Shown here piece after piece: positions 14,746 through 61,908 of a stretch of DNA of 64,000 bases. Under the pieces are notes generated by a model. It was not told where the DNA came from, searched no databases, and worked only from the letters and a program-made list of their open reading frames with translations. A program made the position numbers and the translations under genes. Position 1 is the stretch's first letter. Every line of letters begins with the position of its first letter. The stretch is taken from contig JAHLKG010000028.1 in assembly GCA_025526995.1 (NCBI GenBank), positions 62,001-126,000 on the forward strand. The letters are read 5' to 3'. This DNA is from Powellomyces hirtus (lineage: Eukaryota > Chytridiomycota > Chytridiomycetes > Spizellomycetales > Powellomycetaceae).

Positions 14746-15394
14746 GCAGACGGCCGCCGCTGCAAACCCTCACGTCTTCCCGGAGGACCGCCCACACTCT
14801 TGCTCATCAGAGAATTCTTCTCCCACGTCGTCCTCAATGAATTCCGTCGCAAAGGAGCTCCTTAAACAAGTTCCCAACTTCGATGGCGATATGAGTAGCC
14901 CACAATTACTTCTCGAATTCATTGCAAAACTGGACGACTTTTCCGAGGTTGCATACCTTCCGCCACTTCTCGAAGCAAAAATGGCGGTAAGCAAACTCAC
15001 ATCTACCGCTCACATCTGGTGGAGGACCCAGGAAAGCCAGGGGACCGCCCCTCGAACATGGAATCATCTCAAAACAACGCTACGCCTGAGATTCACACCA
15101 CCAGCGTTCAGCTCGATGATCCGCGATAAACTGGATGATCTTTCGCAGACCACGTCGGTTATTGCATACAACAATGCGTTCAACAAACTCGTCATGCAGA
15201 TTCCCGACATGAACAAAGGAGAAATCGAGCATCGCTATCTCAAGGGACTCAAGCGTCCTATCTACTCAGCCATCATCTCAAAGGATCTCTTGGATCTGGA
15301 CGCCATGCAGGAAGCCGCAATCCGACAGGAACAGCTTACCTCAGAACAGGGCGCTCGTGTGCCCAAAACCGAGTCTCACGTTGAAGCCATGTGA
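14746..15394 (+). CDS. copia-D Gag
   Basis: Frame 2 reads from the junction with copia-C; the natural start is probably an ATG at about 14739-14746 (MQTAAAANP). The retrotransposon Gag region is clear: FDGDMSSPQLLLEFIAKL, STAHIWWRTQESQG, LRLRFTPPAFSSMIRDKL, AYNNAFNKLVMQIPDM. It stops at TGA 15392-15394. The pol frame, one base back, starts in overlap, so Gag and Pol are in different frames here, either by programmed shift or by a small indel. The zinc knuckle lies in the pol frame. Confidence 0.82.
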
Positions 15395-18300
15395 TGCATG
15401 GCAATTCGGACGCCAACACCAATGAACACGCGCCCCGAAAATCGTGGAAAAAACAACGCCGCCGCTCAGTTCCAGGATCTCCCTGCCTCCTCTGCGAACA
15501 AACCGGTCATTGGATGAAGGACTGCCCGAAAATGAAGGACGCGCGCGAGCTCCTTAAACAACATCAGCAAGAACCTGTTGCCGAAGCAAACCTCGTTTTG
15601 GCAACTAACCACAGGTCCTCGCACTCAATCGCCCTTGATTCTTGCGCAACGCACCACATTATCAAGGACGCTATTCTCCTTACTGACCTGCGACCCATCC
15701 CGGCAGTCCAAATCAGCGTCGCAAACGGCGAAAACCTTACCGCTCGCGAAGCAGGCACACTCACCATCAGCAATAACGACACGGACGAAGCCATTGTCTG
15801 CGTCGACGTGCTCTACGTACCTGAAGCGAGCCGCAACTTGGTTTCCACATCGCCACTGAACCGGGACGGTTACGAAATCACATTCTCAACTAACGGTTCC
15901 TCCATTTTAAAGAACGGCTGCGTCATCATGCCGCTCCGCCACAACGGAAACCAGCCATTTATCGATGGCTACGTCGAGAACAACCGCTGCTGCTTTTGCG
16001 ACCGAAACTGCAAAACAAAGGACCGCAATGTCTATAAACTATGGCATCAACGCTTTGGGCACATTGGACAACGAGCGCTTCAAGCTGCAAATCTGATCTA
16101 CTCTCTCGATCTGCCAAACAACGTCGAACCAGAACACGCGCTGTGCTCCGGCTGCTCCCTCGGTAAATCCACTCGGCTGCCCTTCAATGGGCAAAACTCT
16201 CGACCTGCAACCAAACCACTTGATCGCATACACTCAGACATTCTTGACATGGGCGCCAATCTTCTCTCCCTCTCTGGCGCCCGCTACATCCTCACGTTCA
16301 TTGATGAATACACACGGTATTCCGTCATCTACCTCCTCAAGACCAAAGATCAAACCAACGATTATTGGCAAAACTACCGCGTGTACGCTAAACGCCATCT
16401 CGACTCCAAGATCAAGGAGCTGCGCTGCGATAACGGCGGTGAATACTATCCCCTACAGGCTGAGCTGCTCGCCGATGGGATCACGTTAAACCCTACTCAC
16501 CCGTATTCCTCTCAGCAAAATGGCATTGCTGAACGGTTCAACCGTACGCTCATGGACCAGGTCCGAGCGATTCTTCATGACAGCCGCGCTCCTTTCAAAC
16601 TTTGGGGAGAACTCGCTATGGCCGTCAACTACCTGCGTCAACGGACGCCATCAACGTCTCTCAACAGAGAGACCCCATACCAACGTTGGTTTGGGACCCC
16701 TGCCGATGTATCGAACCTCCGCACCATCTGGAGCGTGGCCTATATGCATCAACCTGTGCGCCGTCGCACACACCGCAAGCTCGGAGCTCGCGCTGTCGGA
16801 CCGTTCCGACTAGTGGGATATCACCCCACTAAACAAGGCAACTATCGCCTTTACGATGCATCGATGGATTCGATCATCGACGCACGAGACGTCACAATTA
16901 ACGAGGCTGATTACGTCAGCCCTGTCGCTCAGAGCGACACCACTCCTGAATATGTGGTTGAGCGCATCTTACTCTCTCGCAACGACAAAGGGGGAGAGGA
17001 ATTCCTGGTCAAGTGGCTTGGCTACGACGAACCAACATGGGAACCCCTCGACAACGTCAAGGATTCAGAGGCCCTGACGCGATTCACCGGAATTGAAGAT
17101 GACGGCACACCCGTAATCGCCGAACTGCATGCCGCATGCAGCACTGACATTGACGAGCCCGCCACTTACCAGGCCGCAATCAACTCGCCGTACGCGAAAG
17201 AGTGGAAACAAGCGATCGACGCTGAACTCTCGTCTCACCGCACTAACAAGACGTGGGACACGGACACCATGCAAACACCGTCTGGCACTCACCTTGTTGA
17301 TTCCAAATGGGTCTTCAAAGTCAAACGCAACGCCGATGGTTCCATCAAGAAGTTCAAAGCCCGCCTCGTCGCCCGAGGCTTCACGCAGCGTGAAAGCATT
17401 GACTTCAACGAAACATATGCGCCCGTCGTCAAGTTTAACACCTTGCGGGCGCTACTCGCGCTTGCCGCTAAGCTCGACCTTCACGTCCATCAGATGGATG
17501 TCATCACCGCATTTCTCAACGGAGATCTCGACGTAGAAATCTGGATGCGGCTCCCAGCCGGCGTCGCTGACGACGTCGTCAAACTACGCCGTTCCCTTTA
17601 CGGCCTTAAACAATCACCGCGCCTATGGAACAAGGTTCTCGACTCCTTTCTTCAACAGCTCGGGTTCTCAGTATCAGAACTCGACACCGCGCTCTACATT
17701 AAGCGGACTGACAACACAAGGATCCTGATTGTTGCCGTCTACGTGGATGATCTCACGATTTTCGCATCAAACCTCGATGACCTGCTCGCTCTCAAATCCG
17801 CGCTTGCCGAACGCTTCAAGATGGAGGACATGGGGGAGATCTCTTTCCTTCTTGGTCTTCAGATTACGCGCGACCGGTCAAAGTGATGCATTACCATCGG
17901 CCAACAGAAGTACATCAAAGACATGATCGACAAGTTTAACCTTAACGGCATGCGGCCGCATCACATCCCGATGGACCCGACCTTACATCTAAACGCACAC
18001 GATGGAGCCGACGCCCTCGACGCATCAGGAATCAAGGAATATCAGTCGATCATTGGAACACTAATGTATCTGATGTTAGGGACTCGCCCTGACCTGGCCT
18101 ACTCAGTTTCCCGTTTATCTCAGTTTCTGGCAGCACCGACGGCCGCACACATGACGGCCGCAAAGAAAGTTTGCGCGTACGCAAACACAACCAGTGATCT
18201 CTCTCTTGTCTTCCAAGATGGGGGAGATATTGTCGGATATTTGGATGCCGACTACGCACGCTGTACGGACACGCGTCGCTCAACCTCCGGCTATGTATTC

Positions 18301-18717
18301 ATGCTCAACGGAGCTGCTATTTCATGGAAATCTCAACGTCAAAAATCAACGGCGCTATCCACAGCAGAAGCAGAATACATTGCACTCGCGGAATGTGCAA
18401 AGGAAGCACTCTGGATCCAGGGTCTCCTATCCGAACTGTCAGCAACGGAGCAGACAGCAGTTCTCATCTATGAGGACAATCAGGCCGCTATCAAGCTTGC
18501 CGCCAATCCGACGCATCACCAACAAACCAAACACATCGATGTCCGTTATCACTTCCTGCGAGACCTCGTCGGTAACGAGCGCATTCACCTACAGTACATT
18601 GAGTCCAAGCTCATGCTGGCTGACGCCCTGACAAAACCGCTACCTCGCCCATTACTTGATGATCTGCGACATCGAACTGGACTCCAAACGAAATCAGATT
18701 ACGCCAAATCTCACTGA
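15391..18717 (+). pseudogene. copia-D Pol: protease-integrase-chromodomain-RT-RNase H, one in-frame stop
   Basis: One frame over 3.3 kb with a single TGA at 17884-17886. It contains a zinc knuckle CLLCEQTGHWMKDC, a protease site LDSCATHHI (Cys replaces the Gly of the usual DSG), integrase HHCC (LWHQRFGH, CSGCSLGK) and the core with IHSDILDM, RCDNGGEY and NGIAERFN. A chromodomain follows at 16945-17085 (EYVVERILL, FLVKWLGYDEPTWEP). RT has KWVFKVKRNADG, HQMDVITAFLNGDL and YVDDLTIFA; RNase H has YLDADYA, STAEAEYIAL and EDNQAAIKLA. The stop reads SK-TGA-CITIGQQKYIKD and fits a CGA-to-TGA change. Apart from this stop and the Cys in the protease site the polyprotein looks complete. Confidence 0.88.
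16945..17085 (+). other. chromodomain inside copia-D Pol
   Basis: About 47 residues with the chromodomain pattern: EYVVERIL, then FLVKWLGYDEPTWEP and a C-terminal helix (DSEALTRF). The aromatic residues expected for a methyl-lysine cage (Tyr, Trp, Trp) are present. It lies after the integrase C-terminal part and before RT. If Pol is processed as in other copia elements, it would form the C-terminus of integrase. Confidence 0.85.
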
Positions 18718-27772: not shown

Positions 27773-27997
27773 ATGGCCAGGGTACGTCTATGAGATCCGC
27801 GCCAATGAGGCGTACGTTTCTAATTATGTGCCGGTGTAGTTGTCAGGTTCGGGCAAAGCGAAGCAGACGGCAAGAAAGACCGGACCGCCGGTGACTGCTC
27901 CTGCGACGACCACAGCTCCTGCTGTGCCGTCGTCAGTGGTGCCCTCTGCGCCACAGGGAGGTGCACCCTTTTCGGCAGAGAGAATGCCAGCATGTTA
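27773..27997 (+). pseudogene. antisense gene of copia-F, 5' part, in F1
   Basis: Exon 1 (27773-27781, ATG GCC AGG), intron 27782-27839 (58 bp, GTACGT...TCTAAT...GTGTAG) and 43 codons of exon 2 (27840-27968), after which the deletion joins it to gag and a stop follows at about 27997. Against the complete gene at 31947-32636 there is one exon 1 change (GCC/GCT) and five exon 2 changes, all synonymous. The intron differs more and by one indel. Confidence 0.85.
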
Positions 27998-30278: not shown

Positions 30279-30553
30279 TGTAATAATACTAGGTCCGTTG
30301 CCAGAGTCTAGTCTTCTATTCGGGAATTCCCTATCTCTAATTCTACTGTAAGATCTCTAAGTCTTGATTGCGCCCTTGTCGGAGCATTCCTACTTTTCTT
30401 CTAGGCCGCGGAGCGGCCCTGGTCACGTGATGGCCATCCGTGGCCATCCCTGAGGTCTAGTACCCTTCGGGATGCTGACGCTAGCATCCATCTTGCGCGG
30501 GACCCTTCCCGACGCGTGTCTAGGCTTAGGCTGGTGAGCCACGCCTCATTACA
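30279..30553 (-). repeat. gypsy 5' LTR (unit 1)
   Basis: A 275-bp LTR with ends TGTAAT/ATTACA, PBS on one side and GTATC (30554-30558) as candidate target duplication on the other. It contains GGTCACGTGATGGCC. Exact copies lie at 42349-42623 and 54419-54693. Confidence 0.92.
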
Positions 30554-30874
30554 GTATCACTCTCATGTGTGATGCCAGATGTATAGAGACTGGACGGCAG
30601 GAGCTGCATTCTCTGCTATGGCAACGCATGAGTATATAAACGGGTGGACCCAGGGTCCTCCCGGAGAAAGAACAGAGTTGTATACACCCCCATTACTGCG
30701 GTACACTGGAGGACAATTCTCCTAGGTCTATATGCAGAGGCGTGTAGTCTAGTACTAAGGATAGAGGTATTCATACAGAGCATCACTTCTACTCTTGCCC
30801 TTAGCACCAGGCATGCCAACATCAAAGCGGTTGTCACGGAATTTCTGGGACCCGGGCCTTGGGGATCCGCCAGA
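30554..30874. other. unassigned sequence with a TATA box, possibly a solo LTR
   Basis: No gene seen. There is a clear TATA motif (GTATATAAACG at about 30632) followed by a pyrimidine-rich stretch, and TGTGATGCC.../...GGCATGCCAACA ends about 250 bp apart that could be a solo LTR of another family. No target duplication was confirmed. Copies lie at 42624-42944 and 54694-55014. Confidence 0.3.
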
Positions 30875-31591: not shown

Positions 31592-31830
31592 TGTTGGTCT
31601 GAGAGTATCTGAGTAGATGATTCAGGAAGCTTTAGGGTAGTTGACTGAGCAGAACAACGAAGTAACTTAATCCCGCTCTGTTGGAGAAAAAGAGAAAAGT
31701 CCCACCGATATATTAAGTATCGAAGGAAAACTACTTATATCGGAGTTGATCACGTGGGTTCACGTGATCGCGTGATACGCCCTGCGATGGCGCAGTTGTG
31801 ACTCGATGACAGAGTCTGTACGTGCTAACA
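31592..31830 (-). repeat. copia-F 3' LTR (F2)
   Basis: A 239-bp LTR, TGTTAG...CCAACA on the minus strand. Left flank GCATT is the same as at F5. It is followed on the right by the polypurine tract (CCCCCACTC on the plus strand, 31831-31839). It carries the CACGTG...CACGTGATCGCGTGAT motif cluster. Confidence 0.93.
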
Positions 31831-31946
31831 CCCCCACTCAGACCTGTCAGTCTGGCAGTGAGAGAGTTGCTCTATCTACTTTTACTACACAGCCCCGCGC
31901 ACACCCCCAAACACCCCCATTTATTACATTGTTAAGAATACGAGGA

Positions 31947-32636
31947 ATGGCTAGGGTACGTCTATGAGATCCGCGCAAATGAGGCGTAAGCTCTAACTAT
32001 GTGCCGGTGTAGTTGTCAGGTTCGGGCAAAGCAAAGCAGACGGCGAGAAAGACGGGACCGCCGGTAACCGCTCCTGCGACGACCACAGCTCCTGCTGTGC
32101 CGTCGTCAGTGGTGCCCTCTGCGCCACAGGGAGGTGCACCCGCTGCGGGGTTGTCCCGAGCGGAGATTCGAACAATATCGGCGGCGCATGCCCGACAGTT
32201 CCACCGCAAGGACCGTCAAGGGGTCCTTGAACGTCACATCGAGCAGGCGAAAGACCGGGTGAAAGACCGGGCGAGGTCTGGTACGCCTCTGGGTCGCGCA
32301 CGGGCGACCGGGACGCTTGATGGACTGAGGTCCATACTAGAGGACCGGCGGAGCCGGAAGCTGGCGGTTGGGAAGGGCAAGGATGCGGCCCAGGCGAAGA
32401 AGAGGGCTGCGGACAAGAAGTCTGTAGCGGAGGTGAAAAGGATGTGGGACATCCTGGAGCGTGAAGCTCCATATAATGATGAGGAAGAGGAGGAGGAGGA
32501 GGGGGCAGCCGAGGAGTTGGAGGGACCATTGGGTTCTTCAAGCCGACGCTCACCCTCAAGCGATGAGGATGATGGAGGAGGGGCCGGCCCATCCTCCTTG
32601 GGAGGCATTGCTTCGGGTTCCGCAATTGCGGTGTAG
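31947..32636 (+). CDS. antisense two-exon gene of copia-F (unit 1)
   Basis: Exon 1 31947-31955 (ATG GCT AGG), intron 31956-32012 (57 bp, GTACGT donor, CTCTAAC branch site, GTGTAG acceptor), exon 2 32013-32636. Product 210 residues: a Ser/Ala/Pro-rich N-terminus, a basic, probably helical middle (residues about 50-145, e.g. LERHIEQAKDRVKDRARSG, AAQAKKRAADKK), a run of seven Glu near 160 and an acidic Ser-rich tail. It lies opposite the 3' end of pol, and its ATG is 116 bp inside the LTR. The match to F1 shows only synonymous changes. No known domain is recognised; a nuclear or nucleic-acid role is only suggested by the composition. Confidence 0.8.
31956..32012 (+). other. intron of the copia-F antisense gene
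   Basis: 57 bp with GTACGT, CTCTAAC and GTGTAG. In F1 it is 58 bp with several changes but keeps donor, branch region (TTCTAAT) and acceptor. Confidence 0.78.
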
Positions 32637-34764
32637 TAGCCAAGGTAAGCCAGTGTTGTGAGTAATTCTCCTGACATTCAGCGAGTAACACTTGAGCTCG
32701 GTGTGCTTCCGTAGACGCGCCCTCATTGCGTATCCTTTCATCAAGTATATGAGTCCCATTCGTAATCCTCAGGACAGTGTCCTTATGTTTCACAGTAGGA
32801 AAAGGCTTCGTAAAGATGTCCGCCAGTTGATCGTCCATATGGGTGTCGATGATTTCGATAATTTGCTTCGCGAACGAATCGCGTATAGCGTGGTACCGAA
32901 CGTCGATGTGTTTGGTGCGTTGGTTGATAGCCTTAGACTGGATCAAGGCCCCGGCGCTCTGATTATCGACATGTGGAGGGACCGGTCGAGATTTGTAATC
33001 CGGTTGAGGTCCCAAAACTTCCGCCAGGAGTTGGCGTAGCCATTTGGCTTCGTTGTGGCCGGTACTTGCAGCTATATACTCCGCTTCGGTCGTACTTTGG
33101 GCGGTGCACTTCTGCTTGCTGCTTTTCCACAGAACAGGAAACCCATTGTAAAGGGCCAAAATACCTGTAGTGGACGTCCGGTCGGTGAGTTCTCCGGCAT
33201 AATCCGCATCCGTGAATACGCGTAGACCACGTGGATCATTTCGTTCGGATGTAAACTTGAGGGCATAATCGCGGGTACCCTTTAAATAGCGGAAAATGCG
33301 CTTAACATTGTTCCAGTCGGAGTTGGTAGGTGCGGTGACGCGGCGCGCAACGTAACCGACTGCAGTGGCGATGTCCCATCGCCATGTGATGGAGGCCCAA
33401 GTGAGGACCCCCACTGCTTCCTGATACATTTTCAGATTCGTGAATGGGGTTGAATCCTCCGGTTGTTGGTTACGCGCTGACACGGTGTACGGAGTGGAGA
33501 CAGGATGGCAGTCGCTCATGCCGAATTGTTCGAGAGCGTCGTCGATGTATTTGACATTTGAGATTTCGAGGGTACAAACAGGAGAGTCGAAGTCATATTT
33601 GTAAACGAGACCAAGGTGACTGGTTACGCAACCTTGTTCCGTAAACTTGAACTTCGAATGTAGCTCCATTTTGCTGTTCGCCAGAATCTCCTGATCCTTC
33701 GCTGCAATCAGCAGGTCGTCGACGAAGACCATAATAAGGATCAAGTTGTCGTTTGACGGAGGTGTACGGTCGTCTGTCGCGTACTTGAAAAAGATACACG
33801 GGCATACAGAAACTGCTTCGTAGCCGAGCTTTAACAGTGCAGTCTTCAAGGTCTCATACCAAAGAAGAGGTGATTGCTTCAGGCCGTAGAGAGCTTTCAG
33901 TAGCTTCAGGACCCAATTGCCTTTGGGGTGATCCGGATCTTCGAATCCCTCAAACTGCTCGATATAGATATCCTTATCAATATCACTGTTAAGGAAGGCG
34001 GTGACAGCGTCCATACTGTGGATGTCCAGCCCGTGCTGAACACAATACGCCAAGAAGAGGCGTAGCGCTGTGAATGGTAGCGTCGGTGAGTATGTATCAC
34101 CAAAGTCGCGACCGGGATGTTGAGAGAAGCCTTGAGCCACTGCTCTGGCTTTGAACTTGTTAAAGGTGCCATCGGGATTGACCTTCGTTCGAAAGACCCA
34201 TGTTGTGCCGATCACGCACTTGTTACGTGGACGCTTGGTGAGCTCCCATGTGCCGTTGTCGACCAGGGATTGGTACTCTATGCGTGCAGCCTTAAGAAAT
34301 TCCTCCTTCTGAGGGGTTTTCATTGCTTGCTTCCATGTCATGGCGTCTTCGTTGATCGTTGCTTGAGTCCGCGGGCGAGCGGCGTATGCAGCAATGGGGT
34401 CATTTTGTCGTGTGCCGACATTGTATGCGGCTACTCGATTCTCCCAGTCATCCAATGCGGTAGTATCGAGTAGTGAGAGTTGGGACTCCCACGTAGGTTC
34501 TTGATATCCCTCCCACTTAACCAAGTATTCTTCCGTGTGCACCTTACTGCGGCGCTCGTCGATAATCTCCTCCACGGTGTATTCGACGTCATCCTCCTGA
34601 CTCTCCTCATCTAGGAGATCAAGATGTGCTGGATCCTGCTGATATTTGGGTTCGAGTCCCAAGTCTTCTTTGAAGATCACGTCTCGTGACACTTCGACCT
34701 TGTCAGTGATAGGATCCCAAACCAGATACCCCTTGGTACCTGAGGGTTGAGCATAGCCTACCAA
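31993..34764 (-). CDS. F2 Pol 3' half: chromodomain-RT-RNase H
   Basis: 923-codon frame. Residues 1-45 are the end of integrase (YAQPSGTKGYLVWDP, SRDVIFKED). Residues about 60-112 are a chromodomain. RT has WVFRTKVNPDGTFNKFKAR, DIHSMDAVTAFLN, LYGLKQSPLLWYE and FVDDLLIAA (Phe in place of Tyr of YVDD). RNase H has FTDADYAG, TTEAEYIAAS and VDNQSAGAL. The domain ends near QENYSQHWL at about 32640. The last 210-odd codons, Pro-rich, run exactly opposite the antisense gene and are probably a by-product of it. Gag, protease and most of integrase are missing: the 5' end joins the first 30 codons of gag out of frame at about 34787. Confidence 0.88.
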   Translation of the reverse strand: MVGYAQPSGTKGYLVWDPITDKVEVSRDVIFKEDLGLEPKYQQDPAHLDLLDEESQEDDVEYTVEEIIDERRSKVHTEEYLVKWEGYQEPTWESQLSLLDTTALDDWENRVAAYNVGTRQNDPIAAYAARPRTQATINEDAMTWKQAMKTPQKEEFLKAARIEYQSLVDNGTWELTKRPRNKCVIGTTWVFRTKVNPDGTFNKFKARAVAQGFSQHPGRDFGDTYSPTLPFTALRLFLAYCVQHGLDIHSMDAVTAFLNSDIDKDIYIEQFEGFEDPDHPKGNWVLKLLKALYGLKQSPLLWYETLKTALLKLGYEAVSVCPCIFFKYATDDRTPPSNDNLILIMVFVDDLLIAAKDQEILANSKMELHSKFKFTEQGCVTSHLGLVYKYDFDSPVCTLEISNVKYIDDALEQFGMSDCHPVSTPYTVSARNQQPEDSTPFTNLKMYQEAVGVLTWASITWRWDIATAVGYVARRVTAPTNSDWNNVKRIFRYLKGTRDYALKFTSERNDPRGLRVFTDADYAGELTDRTSTTGILALYNGFPVLWKSSKQKCTAQSTTEAEYIAASTGHNEAKWLRQLLAEVLGPQPDYKSRPVPPHVDNQSAGALIQSKAINQRTKHIDVRYHAIRDSFAKQIIEIIDTHMDDQLADIFTKPFPTVKHKDTVLRITNGTHILDERIRNEGASTEAHRAQVLLAECQENYSQHWLTLATTPQLRNPKQCLPRRMGRPLLHHPHRLRVSVGLKNPMVPPTPRLPPPPPPLPHHYMELHAPGCPTSFSPPLQTSCPQPSSSPGPHPCPSQPPASGSAGPLVWTSVHQASRSPVRDPEAYQTSPGLSPGLSPARCDVQGPLDGPCGGTVGHAPPILFESPLGTTPQRVHLPVAQRAPLTTAQQELWSSQERLPAVPSFSPSALLCPNLTTTPAHS
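34429..34587 (-). other. chromodomain in copia-F Pol
   Basis: EYTVEEIIDER, then EYLVKWEGYQEPTWE and a C-terminal helix (LLDTTALDDWENRV). The cage aromatics are present. It lies between integrase and RT, as in copia-D. F5 has the same domain at 58569-58727 (EYAVEAIIDE). Confidence 0.85.
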
Positions 34765-34786
34765 GTAAGCCTTCTTTGTAGCGTAT

Positions 34787-34881
34787 TGGACCCTGGGGTC
34801 TGCCGACCCGTTAGGCGTCTTAACATACTACGAGTGTACCGGGGGCTTGTTTCGTTGCCTACCATTTCAGGGCTCATAACC
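34787..34881 (-). pseudogene. F2 PBS and gag stub
   Basis: After the LTR come the half-tRNA PBS (GGTTATGAGCCCTGA) and the first 30 codons of gag (MVGNETSPRYTRS to GSNTLQ), then a direct jump into the end of integrase. It marks the left end of a large internal deletion. Confidence 0.85.
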
Positions 34882-35120
34882 TGTTGGTCTGAGAGTATCT
34901 GAGTAGATGATTGAGGAAGCTTTAGGGTAGTTGACTGAGCAGAACAACGAAGTAACTTAATCCCGCTCTATTGGAGAAAAAGAGAAAAGTCCCACCGATA
35001 TATTAAGTATGGAAGGAAAACTACTTATATCGGAGTTGATCACGTGGGCTCACGTGATCGCGTGATACGCCCTGCGATGGCGCAGTTATGACTCGATGAC
35101 AGAGTCTGTACGTGCTAACA
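34882..35120 (-). repeat. copia-F LTR between F2 and F3
   Basis: A 239-bp LTR serving as 5' LTR of F2. On its right it abuts F3 pol at codon QQD (flank ATCCT) with no polypurine tract, so it is not a true 3' LTR of F3. Confidence 0.93.
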
Positions 35121-44016: not shown

Positions 44017-44706
44017 ATGGCTAGGGTACGTCTATGAGATCCGCGCAAATGAGGCGTAAGCTCTAACTATGTGCCGGTGTAGTTGTCAGGTTCGGGCAAA
44101 GCAAAGCAGACGGCGAGAAAGACGGGACCGCCGGTAACCGCTCCTGCGACGACCACAGCTCCTGCTGTGCCGTCGTCAGTGGTGCCCTCTGCGCCACAGG
44201 GAGGTGCACCCGCTGCGGGGTTGTCCCGAGCGGAGATTCGAACAATATCGGCGGCGCATGCCCGACAGTTCCACCGCAAGGACCGTCAAGGGGTCCTTGA
44301 ACGTCACATCGAGCAGGCGAAAGACCGGGTGAAAGACCGGGCGAGGTCTGGTACGCCTCTGGGTCGCGCACGGGCGACCGGGACGCTTGATGGACTGAGG
44401 TCCATACTAGAGGACCGGCGGAGCCGGAAGCTGGCGGTTGGGAAGGGCAAGGATGCGGCCCAGGCGAAGAAGAGGGCTGCGGACAAGAAGTCTGTAGCGG
44501 AGGTGAAAAGGATGTGGGACATCCTGGAGCGTGAAGCTCCATATAATGATGAGGAAGAGGAGGAGGAGGAGGGGGCAGCCGAGGAGTTGGAGGGACCATT
44601 GGGTTCTTCAAGCCGACGCTCACCCTCAAGCGATGAGGATGATGGAGGAGGGGCCGGCCCATCCTCCTTGGGAGGCATTGCTTCGGGTTCCGCAATTGCG
44701 GTGTAG
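44017..44706 (+). CDS. antisense two-exon gene of copia-F (unit 2)
   Basis: Exon 1 44017-44025, intron 44026-44082, exon 2 44083-44706. Identical to the unit 1 gene, so it adds no independent evidence on selection. Confidence 0.78.
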
Positions 44707-55731: not shown

Positions 55732-55970
55732 TGTTGGTCTGAGAGTATCTGAGTAGATGATTCAGGAAGCTTTAGGGTAGTTGACTGAGCAGAACAACGA
55801 AGTAACTTAATCCCGCTCTGTTGGAGAAAAAGAGAAAAGTCCCACCGATATATTAAGTATCGAAGGAAAACTACTTATATCGGAGTTGATCACGTGGGTT
55901 CACGTGATCGCGTGATACGCCCTGCGATGGCGCAGTTGTGACTCGATGACAGAGTCTGTACGTGCTAACA
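55732..55970 (-). repeat. F5 3' LTR
   Basis: 239 bp, matching the F2 3' LTRs at 31592 and 43662. Confidence 0.93.
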
Positions 55971-56086
55971 CCCCCACTCAGACCTGTCAGTCTGGCAGTG
56001 AGAGAGTTGCTCTATCTACTTTTACTACACAGCCCCGCGCACACCCCCAAACACCCCCATTTATTACATTGTTAAGAATACGAGGA

Positions 56087-56776
56087 ATGGCTAGGGTACG
56101 TCTATGAGATCCGCGCAAATGAGGCGTAAGCTCTAACTATGTGCCGGTGTAGTTGTCAGGTTCGGGCAAAGCAAAGCAGACGGCGAGAAAGACGGGACCG
56201 CCGGTAACCGCTCCTGCGACGACCACAGCTCCTGCTGTGCCGTCGTCAGTGGTGCCCTCTGCGCCACAGGGAGGTGCACCCGCTGCGGGGTTGTCCCGAG
56301 CGGAGATTCGAACAATATCGGCGGCGCATGCCCGACAGTTCCACCGCAAGGACCGTCAAGGGGTCCTTGAACGTCACATCGAGCAGGCGAAAGACCGGGT
56401 GAAAGACCGGGCGAGGTCTGGTACGCCTCTGGGTCGCGCACGGGCGACCGGGACGCTTGATGGACTGAGGTCCATACTAGAGGACCGGCGGAGCCGGAAG
56501 CTGGCGGTTGGGAAGGGCAAGGATGCGGCCCAGGCGAAGAAGAGGGCTGCGGACAAGAAGTCTGTAGCGGAGGTGAAAAGGATGTGGGACATCCTGGAGC
56601 GTGAAGCTCCATATAATGATGAGGAAGAGGAGGAGGAGGAGGGGGCAGCCGAGGAGTTGGAGGGACCATTGGGTTCTTCAAGCCGACGCTCACCCTCAAG
56701 CGATGAGGATGATGGAGGAGGGGCCGGCCCATCCTCCTTGGGAGGCATTGCTTCGGGTTCCGCAATTGCGGTGTAG
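56087..56776 (+). CDS. antisense two-exon gene of copia-F (F5)
   Basis: Exon 1 56087-56095, intron 56096-56152, exon 2 56153-56776. Identical in translation to units 1 and 2. This is its natural place in a full-length element: between the RNase H coding region and the 3' LTR, on the opposite strand. Confidence 0.8.
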
Positions 56777-58970
56777 TAGCCAAGGTAAGCCAGTGTTGTG
56801 AGTAATTCTCCTGACATTCAGCGAGTAACACTTGAGCTCGGTGTGCTTCCGTAGACGCGCCCTCATTGCGTATCCTTTCATCAAGTATATGAGTCCCATT
56901 CGTAATCCTCAGGACAGTGTCCTTATGTTTCACAGTAGGAAAAGGCTTCGTAAAGATGTCCGCCAGTTGATCGTCCATATGGGTGTCGATGATTTCGATA
57001 ATTTGCTTCGCGAACGAATCGCGTATAGCGTGGTACCGAACGTCGATGTGTTTGGTGCGTTGGTTGATAGCCTTAGACTGGATCAAGGCCCCGGCGCTCT
57101 GATTATCGACATGTGGAGGGACCGGTCGAGATTTGTAATCCGGTTGAGGTCCCAAAACTTCCGCCAGGAGTTGGCGTAGCCATTTGGCTTCGTTGTGGCC
57201 GGTACTTGCAGCTATATACTCCGCTTCGGTCGTACTTTGGGCGGTGCACTTCTGCTTGCTGCTTTTCCACAGAACAGGAAACCCATTGTAAAGGGCCAAA
57301 ATACCTGTAGTGGACGTCCGGTCGGTGAGTTCTCCGGCATAATCCGCATCCGTGAATACGCGTAGACCACGTGGATCATTTCGTTCGGATGTAAACTTGA
57401 GGGCATAATCGCGGGTACCCTTTAAATAGCGGAAAATGCGCTTAACATTGTTCCAGTCGGAGTTGGTAGGTGCGGCAACGCGGCGCGCAACGTAACCGAC
57501 TGCAGTGGCGATATCCCATCGCCATGTGATGGAGGCCCAAGTGAGGACCCCCACTGCTTCCTGATACATTTTCAGATTCGTGAATGGGGTCGAATCCTCC
57601 GGTTGTTGGTTACGCGCTGATACGGCGTACCGAGTGGAGACAGGATGGCAGTCGCTCATGTTGAATTGTTCAAGAGCGTCGTCAATGTACTTGATGTTTG
57701 AGATTTCGAGGGTACGAACAGGAGATTCGAAGTCATATTTGTAGACGAGACCGAGGTGACTGGTTACGCGACCTTGTTCCGTAAACTTGAACTTCGAATG
57801 TAGCTCAATTTTGCTGTTCGCCAGAATCTCCTGATCCTTTGCTGCAATCAGCAGGTCGTCGACGAAGACCATAATAAGGATCAAGTTGTCGTTTGACGGA
57901 GGTGTACGGTCGTCTGTCGCGTACTTGAAAAAGATACACGGGCATACAGAAACTGCTTCGTAGCCGAGCTTTAACAGTGCAGTCTTCAAGGTCTCATACC
58001 AAAGAAGAGGTGATTGCTTCAGGCCGTAGAGAGCTTTCAGTAGCTTCAGGACCCAATCGCCTTTGGGGTGATCCGGATCTTCGAATCCCTCAAACTGCTC
58101 GATATAGATATCCTTATCAATATTACTGTTAAGGAAGGCGGTGACAGCGTCCATACTGTGGATGTCCAGCCCGTGCTGGACACAATACGCCAAGAAGAGG
58201 TGTAGCGCTGTGAATGGTAGCGGCGGTGAGTATGTATCACCAAAGTCGCGACCGGGTTGTTGAGAGAAGCCTTGAGTCACTGCTCTGGCTTTGAACTTGT
58301 TAAAGGTGCCATCGGGATTGACCTTCGTTCGGAAGACCCATGTTGTGCCGATCACGCGCTTGTTACGTGGACGCTTGGTGAGTTCCCATGTACCGTTGTC
58401 GACCAGGGATTGGTACTCAATGCGTGCAGCCTTGAGAAATTCCTCCTTCTGAGGGATTTTCATCGCTTGCTTCCATGTCATGGCGTCTTCGTTGATCGTT
58501 GCTTGAGTCCGCGCGCGGGCGGCGTATGCAGCAATGGGGTCATTTCGTCGTGTGCCGACATCGTACGCGGCGACTCGATTCTCCCAGTCATCCAATGCGG
58601 TAGTATCGAGTAGTGAAAGTCGAGACTCCCATGTAGGTTCTTGATATCCCTCCCACTTAACTAAGTACTCTTTTGTGTGCACCTTACTGCGGTGCTCGTC
58701 GATAATCGCCTCCACGGCGTATTCGACGTCATCCTCCTGACTCTCCTCATCTAGAAGGTCAAGATGTGCTGGATCCTGCTGATATTTGGGTTCGAGTCCC
58801 AAGTCTTCTTTGAAGATCACGTCTCGTGACACTTCGACCTTGTCAGTAACAGGATCCCATACCAGATACCCCTTGGTACCTGTGGGTTGAGCATAGCCTA
58901 CCAAGTAAGCCTTCTTTGCTTGATTCCCCATTTTATCGCGTCCTTTGCTTGTTAGAACGGAATATGCCAC
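56133..58970 (-). CDS. F5 Pol 3' half: integrase end-chromodomain-RT-RNase H
   Basis: 945-codon frame. It begins in the integrase C-terminal part, then the chromodomain (58569-58727), RT with FVDDLLIAA, and RNase H as in F2. Several substitutions from F2 lie upstream of about 57474, none downstream. The frame is separated from the gag-protease-integrase frame by a 2-nt deletion near 59078. The C-terminal extension after about 56780 is opposite the antisense gene and doubtful as protein. Confidence 0.9.
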   Translation of the reverse strand: MAYSVLTSKGRDKMGNQAKKAYLVGYAQPTGTKGYLVWDPVTDKVEVSRDVIFKEDLGLEPKYQQDPAHLDLLDEESQEDDVEYAVEAIIDEHRSKVHTKEYLVKWEGYQEPTWESRLSLLDTTALDDWENRVAAYDVGTRRNDPIAAYAARARTQATINEDAMTWKQAMKIPQKEEFLKAARIEYQSLVDNGTWELTKRPRNKRVIGTTWVFRTKVNPDGTFNKFKARAVTQGFSQQPGRDFGDTYSPPLPFTALHLFLAYCVQHGLDIHSMDAVTAFLNSNIDKDIYIEQFEGFEDPDHPKGDWVLKLLKALYGLKQSPLLWYETLKTALLKLGYEAVSVCPCIFFKYATDDRTPPSNDNLILIMVFVDDLLIAAKDQEILANSKIELHSKFKFTEQGRVTSHLGLVYKYDFESPVRTLEISNIKYIDDALEQFNMSDCHPVSTRYAVSARNQQPEDSTPFTNLKMYQEAVGVLTWASITWRWDIATAVGYVARRVAAPTNSDWNNVKRIFRYLKGTRDYALKFTSERNDPRGLRVFTDADYAGELTDRTSTTGILALYNGFPVLWKSSKQKCTAQSTTEAEYIAASTGHNEAKWLRQLLAEVLGPQPDYKSRPVPPHVDNQSAGALIQSKAINQRTKHIDVRYHAIRDSFAKQIIEIIDTHMDDQLADIFTKPFPTVKHKDTVLRITNGTHILDERIRNEGASTEAHRAQVLLAECQENYSQHWLTLATTPQLRNPKQCLPRRMGRPLLHHPHRLRVSVGLKNPMVPPTPRLPPPPPPLPHHYMELHAPGCPTSFSPPLQTSCPQPSSSPGPHPCPSQPPASGSAGPLVWTSVHQASRSPVRDPEAYQTSPGLSPGLSPARCDVQGPLDGPCGGTVGHAPPILFESPLGTTPQRVHLPVAQRAPLTTAQQELWSSQERLPAVPSFSPSALLCPNLTTTPAHS

Positions 58971-59022
58971 GCACCCGATACGCCAAAGATGGGCAACATC
59001 AGGACGCCGGCCAAATAAGATT

Positions 59023-61665
59023 TCATGCGGCGTCTTCTTGTTGATGCGGTTGTACGTAAGGGAATAGATGTATCCAGCCTATCAGTAGAGCAGGCCAGAA
59101 TCTTCGGGGTAGTTTCGTATCCGCAAAGGTGGCGCGGACCCTGTCCAGCACCGTGCAATGCCATCGTTCGGCAATCCCGTTTTGCTGACTCGAATAGGCC
59201 GCGGACTTTTGATGAGTGATACCATTTTCCAATAGGTACTCTAGAACCTCGCCAAAGTATTCGGTGCCTCGATCCGTGCGTAGAATCTTGATGTGTCGGT
59301 CAGTCTGTTTCTCAATCCAAGCCTTGTAAATGAGAAACTTGTCGAGTATGACTGCTGAATCCTTTGAAGGAATAGGGAAAACAGTCACGTATCTGGATGC
59401 GTGTTCAATGAACTCCAGCGAATAGCGTGATCCTTTGTAACCAGGGATGCGAAATGGTCCTTGTAGGTCTGAATGAATCAGCTCACAGATCTCCCTGGCT
59501 TCAACATTACCAGGGGAGAATGGAAGACGAGCGGCTTTTCCTAGCACGCAGGCTTCACAATCTTTGAAGTCACTTAGATCCCCCACTACGGACCAACCGT
59601 CCGTAACCGATGCCATCTTCTCCAGGACGTGTTTGCCAACGTGTCCAAGACGAGCATGAGCGAGTGTAGGAGAGACTTCGACAGTGCATGCTTCTGAATC
59701 TGTCCACAGACTTTCAGACAGCAGCGTACCTTGCAGGTAATACACGTTGTTGCGGTGTACGCCTTTGGCGATATCTTTGCCGTCTCGCGTGAAAATGACG
59801 TCTCCATTCGACTTGAAGAGCACGTCAACGCCTTGATCGTTGCATTTCGCTACCGATACGAGATCTCGTCGTAATCCTGGCACATGCAGGACTCCGCCCA
59901 ACTCGAGCGGATTTGGATAGTCGTTAACTTCTACTCGTACCGTACCTCGAACTGTAGAGGGGAGTGATGTTTTGTCAGCAAGCATAACAGCTCTGACATC
60001 ACTGTACACGGTTGAGTGATCCAAGGTCGCTTTGTGAGGTGTCATGTGGTCCGTAGCGCCAGAGTCGATGAGGGCTTCATACGGTTGTTCTTGGCGGACC
60101 CAGACGTGTAATGCTTCCACAGCATTTGTGCTAACAGCACCATCAGACGACTGCTTCGTCTTGTTCTTCTCCATCTCGGATTTGAACTTCTTTAACACTT
60201 CGCACTCCTGCGTTCGGTGTTTAGGGTCTCCACAGGCCCAACAACCCGACTTTTGTGATTGTTGACCTTTGTTTGATGGAGTGGATTCCTTGTCCTTCTT
60301 GCCGTTCGTTGACTTCTCCCCGTGGTTCTTGCCACCCTTTTGTTTCTTAGAGGCGTCAGTGTGTGCGGCACCTGGTCGCGTATCCGTTGAGGTCCCGCTA
60401 GGCTTCTTAGCCATGTTGGCGGCAATCCTGGATGCAGCGGCCTGTAAACTGCTCAAATCAGTTATGTTTTCTTCATTAGCCTGAACCAAGGCCGCAAGGT
60501 CTGGTGTTAGCGCGTTGATGAAGTAATCCTGAAGGACGTAATCCGGTGTTTTCGGCAGAGAGAATGCCAGCATGTTAAACTGAGTGATGTACTCATCCAT
60601 GCGGCCTTTGGGACGCAATTCCCGTAGTTTCTGCAGCGAATCCCTAATGTGGTTTCGTGGCGCGAACCGCGCCAGAAGGGCGGACCTGAGACCGGTGTTG
60701 GTTCTTCCTGAATCAACGTCTTCAAAGTCATGCCACGTCGTAATTGCGTTCCTTTTATTTGGTGAGAGCGACTGCCACCAAGTGTATGCCCATCCTGTGA
60801 GTTTTGTAGCCACAAAATCCACGAGAAACTCGGGCGGAACCATTTCGTACTTCACAACTGTCTCAATCTTGTTGATGAACGTTTGAAGTTTGACCATATT
60901 GGCTTCCCCGTTGTAAGATCCAATATCTTTCAGCGTTCCATCCACGAAAGCCTTCGCACCTCGACTGTCGACGATTTTGGTTGTCACGCTGTGTATGCTC
61001 GATGTCGGTGATGTAGGGCGGCGTTCAAATGGAGAACGTTGGTATTCCTGTTGAGCTCCAATCTCCTGATTGTACTCTGTCCACGGTGCAGCGAACCCGT
61101 CGTTGCGAGTGGGTGATGGTGTGCGTACGCGCCGTTGCGCCGTACGTACCTGAGGGTTGATCGGGATATTCACATCCTGATCCATGCGCCATTTCATTTG
61201 GAGCATTTCCGTTAGTTGGGCTAGAGAATTCTCAAGCCGATCTATCCTATCCACGTCCGCCTCACGCGGGCGGACATGCACGGTGTTCGCTGATTCCCCA
61301 CTTGGGAATGCTGCTGGAGTACTGTAGTTGATCGTTCTGTGATCATCTGTACTGCTTGATAGGGGACGGGTATCGACCTTGCCATTGCGTCGGTCGATGT
61401 TTCGGGTACGCCCTTCCAATGCATCGTCGCCCTCGTTGGCGTCGACACTCAAAGGCGTTGGCTCTGCCAGTGTATCGTCACTGGCAGATTTCCCTCCATT
61501 GCTTGGTGATGTCCATTCACCAGGCACTCGTGCGCTTTTCTTTGCGGCACGTTCTACGGCTCGTTGTAGCGTATTGGACCCTGGGGTCTGCCGACCCGTT
61601 AGGCGTCTTAACATACTACGAGTGTACCGGGGGCTCGTTTCGTTGCCTACCATTTCAGGGCTCAT
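59023..61665 (-). CDS. F5 Gag-protease-integrase, frameshifted at its end
   Basis: 880 codons with Gag domain, zinc knuckle CWACGDPKHRTQEC, LIDSGATDHM, HHCC, and D,D-35-E (IHSDLQGP, RTDRGTEY, NGIAERWH). After RFWPALL a 2-nt deletion near 59078 (CAGCCTATCAG versus CAGCCGCTACCAG in F3) shifts the frame and ends it at 59023. One small indel therefore separates this copy from a complete gag-pol frame. Confidence 0.9.
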   Translation of the reverse strand: MSPEMVGNETSPRYTRSMLRRLTGRQTPGSNTLQRAVERAAKKSARVPGEWTSPSNGGKSASDDTLAEPTPLSVDANEGDDALEGRTRNIDRRNGKVDTRPLSSSTDDHRTINYSTPAAFPSGESANTVHVRPREADVDRIDRLENSLAQLTEMLQMKWRMDQDVNIPINPQVRTAQRRVRTPSPTRNDGFAAPWTEYNQEIGAQQEYQRSPFERRPTSPTSSIHSVTTKIVDSRGAKAFVDGTLKDIGSYNGEANMVKLQTFINKIETVVKYEMVPPEFLVDFVATKLTGWAYTWWQSLSPNKRNAITTWHDFEDVDSGRTNTGLRSALLARFAPRNHIRDSLQKLRELRPKGRMDEYITQFNMLAFSLPKTPDYVLQDYFINALTPDLAALVQANEENITDLSSLQAAASRIAANMAKKPSGTSTDTRPGAAHTDASKKQKGGKNHGEKSTNGKKDKESTPSNKGQQSQKSGCWACGDPKHRTQECEVLKKFKSEMEKNKTKQSSDGAVSTNAVEALHVWVRQEQPYEALIDSGATDHMTPHKATLDHSTVYSDVRAVMLADKTSLPSTVRGTVRVEVNDYPNPLELGGVLHVPGLRRDLVSVAKCNDQGVDVLFKSNGDVIFTRDGKDIAKGVHRNNVYYLQGTLLSESLWTDSEACTVEVSPTLAHARLGHVGKHVLEKMASVTDGWSVVGDLSDFKDCEACVLGKAARLPFSPGNVEAREICELIHSDLQGPFRIPGYKGSRYSLEFIEHASRYVTVFPIPSKDSAVILDKFLIYKAWIEKQTDRHIKILRTDRGTEYFGEVLEYLLENGITHQKSAAYSSQQNGIAERWHCTVLDRVRATFADTKLPRRFWPALLIGWIHLFPYVQPHQQEDAA

Positions 61666-61669
61666 AACC
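61655..61669 (-). promoter_or_regulatory. copia-F primer binding site (F5)
   Basis: GGTTATGAGCCCTGA adjoining the 5' LTR. The same sequence lies at each F LTR that reads into gag. It includes the first in-frame ATG of gag. Confidence 0.8.
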
Positions 61670-61908
61670 TGTTGGTCTGAGAGTATCTGAGTAGATGATT
61701 GAGGAAGCTTTAGGGTAGTTGACTGAGCAGAACAACGAAGTAACTTAATCCCGCTCTGTTGGAGAAAAAGAGAAAAGTCCCACCAATATATTAAGTATGG
61801 AAGGAAAACTACTTATATTGGAGTTGATCACATGGGTTCACGTGATCGCGTGATATGCCCTGCGATGGCACAGTTGTGACTCGATGACAGAGTCTGTACG
61901 TGCTAACA
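61670..61908 (-). repeat. F5 5' LTR
   Basis: 239 bp with TGTTAG/CCAACA ends. It has lost one CACGTG core (CATGGGTTCACGTGATCG) relative to the other copies. Confidence 0.93.

Follow-up and report, generated by a model that had tools for sequence, protein, structure and literature searches.

Antisense open reading frames located between pol and the 3′ LTR of LTR retrotransposons (aORF-3R) are listed, in the cited portion of a review, for maize Grande (GENE23), rice RIRE2, Silene Retand (ORF4), PvRetro13 and the fungal element Boty of Botrytis (PMC7264820). The same portion describes GENE23 as nuclear and as transcribed from a promoter upstream of it, and considers what antisense ORFs do in LTR retrotransposons to be as yet undetermined (PMC7264820). 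The antisense ORFs of Retand are reported, in the cited excerpt, to carry a TRP28 domain, which is probably DNA-binding (PMC11963269). Among retroviruses, HBZ of HTLV-1 is, according to the excerpts cited, an antisense, spliced gene which starts in a first exon within the 3′ LTR and damps sense transcription (PMC1459196, PMC3185765). Among the literature matches listed, no Copia or chytrid element was seen with a gene that is antisense, carries an intron or is selected (an intron in Grande, RIRE2 or Boty is possible), and a check for the term "antisense" in two surveys of fungal LTR elements gave no occurrence (PMC5445492, PMC3248453). Here, we describe a locus that is very probably a protein-coding, selected accessory gene, fixed in one Copia-type LTR family and lying antisense between the constrained part of pol and the 3′ LTR.

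The gene was studied in a stretch of DNA of 64,000 nucleotides (hereafter, the window). It runs antisense to a Copia-type LTR retrotransposon, its ATG lies 116 nt from the 3′ LTR, and it consists of ATGGCTAGG, a 57-nt intron (GT..CTAAC..AG) and a 207-codon exon (Table 1). The predicted splice junction, 31955/32013, would join ATGGCTAGG to TTGTCAGG in the antisense direction. In most copies a G is found at both −3 and +4 around the start ATG. Read without splicing, the frame meets an in-frame stop in every one of the 85 copies aligned (see below); in the window the intron itself ends with an in-frame TAG. The coordinates, codons, GTACGT, CTCTAAC and GTGTAG motifs and the 207-codon exon ending at the TAG at 32636, all given in a preliminary description of this DNA, were verified.

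Table 1. Features of the antisense gene, of its host element and of the related copies in the window.
Feature	Position	Strand	Description
3′ LTR	31592..31830	−	239 bp, TGTTGG..CTAACA; bounds from repeats
Spacer, 3′ LTR to ATG	31831..31946	+	Putative 5′ UTR or promoter
Antisense gene	31947..32636	+	Exon 1, intron and exon 2
Exon 1	31947..31955	+	ATG-GCT-AGG (M-A-R); ATG in 85/85 aligned copies
Intron	31956..32012	+	Predicted, 57 nt; GTACGT 31956–31961, CTCTAAC 31991–31997, GTGTAG 32007–32012
Exon 2	32013..32636	+	207 codons and TAG; core basic, tail acidic
pol ORF	31993..34827	−	Pfam: SH3-like (SH3_retrovirus), chromodomain, RVT_2
F1, diverged truncated copy	27773..27968	+	Exon 1, intron and first 129 nt of exon 2; 94.4% identity over 196 nt
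Second gene copy	44017..44706	+	In second tandem unit; identical, 100% over 690 nt
Third gene copy	56087..56776	+	Inside 55732–61908; identical, 100% over 690 nt
Complete insertion	55732–61908		LTRs 55732–55970 and 61670–61908; GCATT flanks both sides

The assignment of the host element, called F, to Ty1/Copia follows from the presence of the integrase (rve) ahead of RVT_2, of LTRs and of a target duplication. In the pol ORF, RNase H is presumably located downstream of RVT_2, where it was placed from its motifs. The upstream ORF, in the third copy of the window, matches the Pfam families Pol_BBD, gag_pre-integrs and rve as well as a Ty3-type capsid, and the gag of the element matches the Ty3_capsid and Retrotrans_gag models; the F element appears to be a mosaic, with a Copia pol and a Ty3-like gag. 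The chromodomain adjoins RVT_2 in two Copia-type elements of the window, 55732–61908 and 15385–18717, and further proteins combining RVT_2 and Chromo are present in the list of homologues. A presumed polypurine tract, assigned by eye, is found on the − strand of the spacer. The 3′ LTR adjoining the spacer is a candidate source of antisense transcription, as a putative promoter. The window also contains a tandem repeat with a unit of about 12,070 bp (27969–58918; 99.5% identity over 18.9 kb), in which F copies lie together with partial elements and additional LTRs (at 34882 and 38020); it is either a true duplication or an artefact of assembly. Because the three identical gene copies of the window lie inside this repeat, they do not represent three independent transpositions and were counted once.

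A search of the assembly (29.3 Mb in 60 contigs) with the antisense protein returned 127 matches, joined by hand into about 114 loci. We aligned 87 copies, namely 84 fetched loci and the three of the window, while F1 was compared apart and about 26 loci were left unread. Two of the window copies (W44 and W56, both identical to W28) were dropped from all counts, which leaves 85 rows; two rows with many indels (L090 and L091) were further dropped from the substitution counts, which thus refer to 83 rows, and a tree was built from 77, six more having been left out as short or interrupted in pol. Most loci differ by a few per cent and some by up to 12%. The antisense frame is intact in 66 of the 85 copies, a fraction that may be too high since the loci were fetched in the order of their score with the antisense protein.

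The gene is a regular part of the element family, as it adjoins 86 of the 90 pol 3′ ends (out of 118 RNase H matches in the assembly) that extend to the end of the query, with identical spacing in 79. In two of the exceptions the match to the element ends 165 nt (L093) or 80 nt (L095) past pol, a third (L094) runs directly into a repeat known elsewhere in the assembly, and the fourth was left unread. The repeat behind this third pol end (G000:C1:114550-115413) has at least 44 matches in the assembly, 40 candidates having been scored out of 351, and its first 260 nt are also found in the window at 30298–30557.

The predicted product has 210 residues, a mass of 21.9 kDa and a pI of 9.7. It begins with a region rich in Pro, Ala and Thr, followed by a basic middle part (pI 11.2) and an acidic end (pI 4.05), in agreement with the basic/acidic product described earlier. 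The basic middle part is predicted, with modest confidence, to be helical (AlphaFold2 with three sequences; a model of low confidence, mean pLDDT 56, pTM 0.33). The one named relative of the product is a Powellomyces hirtus protein, P0003 (89% identity over 40% of the query); a second, P0002, is from a metagenome. As P. hirtus is a chytrid belonging to the Spizellomycetales, the host of the element is probably related to the chytrids. Relatives beyond these two were not found by sequence or profile among the 3220 and 7991 exact-word candidates scored; the profile search of the product, which had been proposed earlier, recovered the same two and no homologue of known function. Searches of Pfam, NCBIfam and PDB sequences with the product gave nothing over the cut-off; in Pfam there was no match to TRP28 (PF04195), SMC or bZIP, and PDCD7 alone appeared, below the cut-off (E 0.34). 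A search for relatives of the pol in viral_contigs gave no match. By analogy, the product may be a nuclear accessory factor which binds nucleic acid or chromatin and so tunes or assists the life cycle of the element, as has been suggested for GENE23 of Grande and shown for HBZ of HTLV-1; we put this role forward tentatively.

Could the gene have been captured from the host, and still serve it? An intron is present, as in host genes, and transduced genes are known in LTR elements, as noted in the cited portion of the review (PMC7264820). However, the element is matched from its 3′ LTR onward in every one of the 80 loci for which long flanks were read, and 86 pol ends carry the gene (with about 26 loci unread); moreover, outside the assembly, word-based searches yielded only one Powellomyces and one metagenome relative among the candidates scored. 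We therefore regard a captured gene in the service of the host as improbable, and return to a gene that belongs to the element.

Which of the two overlapping frames is under selection can be judged from the positions of the variants, because antisense codon positions 1/2/3 correspond to pol positions 1/3/2, so that the two frames predict opposite patterns. Variants of exon 2 found in at least four of the 83 copies (hereafter, shared variants) fall 22/30/59 on the three antisense positions, that is 22/59/30 on those of pol, whereas variants found in a single copy (72/51/55) show no excess at third positions. For reference, in the region of pol encoding RT–RNase H (32800–34329) the shared variants are distributed 96/55/190 in the pol frame. 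Along the locus, in 120-nt intervals and with variants in at least three copies, the bias lies with the antisense class as far as 32440 and with the pol class beyond 32680, with no preference for either between 32441 and 32680. Two further counts gave the same picture: in 34 pairs diverged by 3–6%, with each copy used once, changes were distributed 136/179/348 in the antisense frame and 178/96/345 in the control pol, and changes counted on the tree of 77 rows were 187/252/401 and 227/127/424, respectively.

The strength of constraint was estimated with a permutation that preserves base and CpG context (2000 trials, hence a floor of 0.0005 on P). Since this permutation assumes independent sites, while the copies are related and probably recombining, the P values are to be taken as guides only. 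In the antisense frame of exon 2, 57 of the shared variants are synonymous against 37.5 expected (ω about 0.49, P about 0.0005); ω is 0.40 for variants in at least eight copies, 0.80 for those in two or three copies (P 0.11, not significant) and 0.96 for single-copy variants, of which 52 are synonymous against 51.2 expected. For the pol frame opposite exon 2 the relation is reversed, with fewer synonymous shared variants than expected (30 against 39.5; P 0.03) and an ω of about 1.5 (1.51). The RT–RNase H region, in its pol frame, has 193 synonymous shared variants against 120 expected (ω 0.42, P 0.0005), with an ω of 0.24 for variants in at least eight copies and of 1.14 for singletons. Conservation of the antisense gene is thus comparable with that of pol (0.49 and 0.42 at four copies, 0.40 and 0.24 at eight). 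Within the product, residues 55–143 are the most constrained (ω 0.38–0.40, P at or below 0.001); for residues 1–54, ω is 0.41, 0.49 and 0.54 (P 0.004, 0.029 and 0.068) at cut-offs of three, four and six copies, and in the acidic C-terminal part constraint is not significant (ω 0.78–0.90, P 0.26–0.44). The order in which loci were chosen is unlikely to have created the effect, as it should have biased singletons as well, and these look neutral.

In exon 2, each of the eight indels found in at least two copies has a length divisible by three, although five sit in a GAG repeat which slips by three anyway; none of the 13 in the spacer and intron is (none of 11 in the spacer itself), and among single-copy indels of exon 2 only 5 of 35 are. 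Judged by these patterns of substitution, the constrained frame is shown to be the antisense one and not that of pol, and the constraint to bear on shared and not on private variants. Such a difference between shared and single-copy variants is expected of a transposon gene, the sequence of which is filtered during copying and free to change after landing.

The case for selection was originally made from a comparison of the F copy with F1, and the test in both frames over many copies that had been called for is the one given above. The original observation stands: exon 1 differs at one site (GCT to GCC, synonymous) and the 129 nucleotides of exon 2 that are shared differ at five; all six are silent third-position changes when read antisense, and each of those in exon 2 alters a residue of the pol frame. 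The conclusion of a protein-coding pattern under selection is borne out far more strongly by the 83 copies than by these six changes. A second element of that comparison, a more diverged intron with an indel, is true of F and F1 (four substitutions and a 1-nt indel) but does not extend to the 83 copies, in which shared variants occupy 7 of 42 sites in the middle of the intron, 59 of 207 third positions of exon 2 and 111 of 621 positions of exon 2 overall. Likewise, a location opposite the 3′ end of pol is correct nominally, but the pol ORF is there without amino acid constraint.

This last point bears on the possibility of true dual coding, in which selection would act on two translated products, the antisense protein and a pol tail of some 215 codons. 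When the antisense protein was synonymously recoded, the pol frame opposite exon 2 (31993–32640) stayed open in 2.2–3.2% of 5000 trials each, with about 3.1 stops expected; the frame is nevertheless open, it can be read to a common terminal stop (index 332–335) in 51 of 85 copies, and over the same stretch 8 of 83 copies have an in-frame stop in it, compared with 15 in the antisense frame, all of which would suit a translated tail. Yet its ω of about 1.5 and the excess of variants at pol second positions do not, and two relatives of the pol, with 61–64% identity, lack the tail and end shortly past RNase H, although these records may be incomplete. Stop counts do not separate the frames (shared stop variants in the antisense frame, 2 against 3.2 expected, are not significantly rarer) and were set aside as evidence. 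As far as substitutions tell, constraint in the pol ORF is seen only from about 32681 upward, the stretch facing exon 2 being an extension free of constraint; it follows that the gene is not a dual-coded overlap, and we hold selection on both proteins to be very unlikely. For the open pol tail, the amino acids of which appear free to change, we have no good explanation beyond chance at the 2–3% level.

The second question concerning a gene selected in the antisense frame is where its protein begins. A GT donor is kept in 83 of 85 copies (AT in one and GC in another), the AG acceptor in all 85, and a CTRAY branch site (CTAAC or CTAAT) in 84; the intron is 56–58 nt long in all 85 copies, with 1-nt indels only. 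In addition, a gene model of NCBI, P0003, joins an unrelated DNA polymerase exon to the antisense protein at residue one of exon 2. This junction coincides with the predicted acceptor, so that an independent gene predictor picked the same site, P0003 being a prediction and not an RNA; a search of the assembly with P0003 (E up to 1e-10) recovered its antisense gene half and not the polymerase half. From the conserved signals, and because no start codon precedes residue 55 within exon 2, we infer that the intron is spliced. Alternatively, translation of an unspliced RNA might begin at Met55, inside exon 2, and give a protein of 153 residues, the intron being incidental: Met55 is found in 81 of 83 copies, P0002 begins there, and a stop two codons upstream is common to five copies. 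However, Met55 is replaced in the window copy (ATA), the ATG, GT, AG and branch site are kept in 83–85 of 85 copies, and residues 1–54 are themselves constrained. The last point matters since Met55 could serve an unspliced RNA, and yet the selected frame begins well before it. A product confined to the part from Met55 onward is accordingly given little credence, and the spliced product of 210 residues is retained in what follows.

The stop just mentioned affects codon 53 of exon 2, which is TGA in L024, L048, L054, L061 and L062 and CGA in most copies; it requires three changes on the tree, and may be explained by its CpG site or by tolerance through a restart at Met55. Finally, the idea that base composition or pol codon bias keeps the antisense frame open, and that no antisense protein exists, can practically be dismissed in spite of three GC-rich codon positions (0.67/0.58/0.62) that favour long open frames, since the third-position bias is antisense only here and lies in the pol frame past 32680, the context-matched permutation gave a P of about 0.0005, and, when the synonymous codons of the pol-tail protein were reshuffled, 0.1% of 3000 trials kept the antisense frame free of stops.

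A sequence of events consistent with a spliced antisense gene can be proposed. An antisense RNA would start in or beside the 3′ LTR, lose the 57-nt intron and then be translated into the 210-residue protein. The intron would survive transposition because it does not act as one in the sense RNA, which serves as the copied template; copying of the antisense mRNA would yield an intronless element, and intron loss, looked for in the 85 aligned copies, was found in none. As the protein would not be translated from the genomic RNA, selection on it is most easily explained if few source copies are active at once. It is conceivable, though we would not press the point, that the gene is a convergent HBZ-like regulator, that is a gene spliced from antisense RNA, whose intron goes unseen in the sense RNA that is copied and is kept at each transposition, whose full protein comes only from antisense transcription, which is selected without a co-translational cis-preference, and whose opposing sense frame is stop-free for a reason that is unexplained. 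Taken together, about 114 loci of a Copia family, in what is probably an early-diverging fungus, give frame-resolved evidence that an antisense gene of an LTR element is coding and maintained, its predicted intron being conserved; they raise the question of how selection sees a transposon protein whose translation does not draw on the copied RNA.

The comparison with HBZ concerns layout only, and nothing shows common descent. As described in the excerpts cited above, the SP1 isoform of HBZ is likewise antisense and next to the 3′ LTR, with a tiny coding exon 1 (four residues there, three predicted here), and at 206 residues HBZ is close in size to the 210 residues predicted here; its intron, however, is of 1400 nt as against 57 nt, and exon 1 lies here outside the LTR. 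The product described here has no bZIP match (Pfam) and no sequence relation to HBZ, and its acidic part is C-terminal. In HBZ the acidic part is at the N end. HIV-1 ASP, on the evidence of the excerpt cited, is likewise a retroelement gene on the opposite strand (PMC8156140). The sense frame is here without amino acid constraint. ASP overlaps a constrained sense gene. With the aORF-3R genes, as presented in the cited portions of the sources named at the outset, the present gene shares its position, its orientation, its presence in most copies and a conservation like that of gag–pol, and there too hints of nuclear location or DNA binding are found. The named examples are mostly plant elements and, where their class is known to us, Gypsy. 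The gene described here differs from them in the lack of a TRP28 (PF04195) or SMC match, in its setting, a Copia family of a probable relative of the chytrids, in a constraint measured for each frame, and in a predicted intron that follows an exon 1 of three codons.
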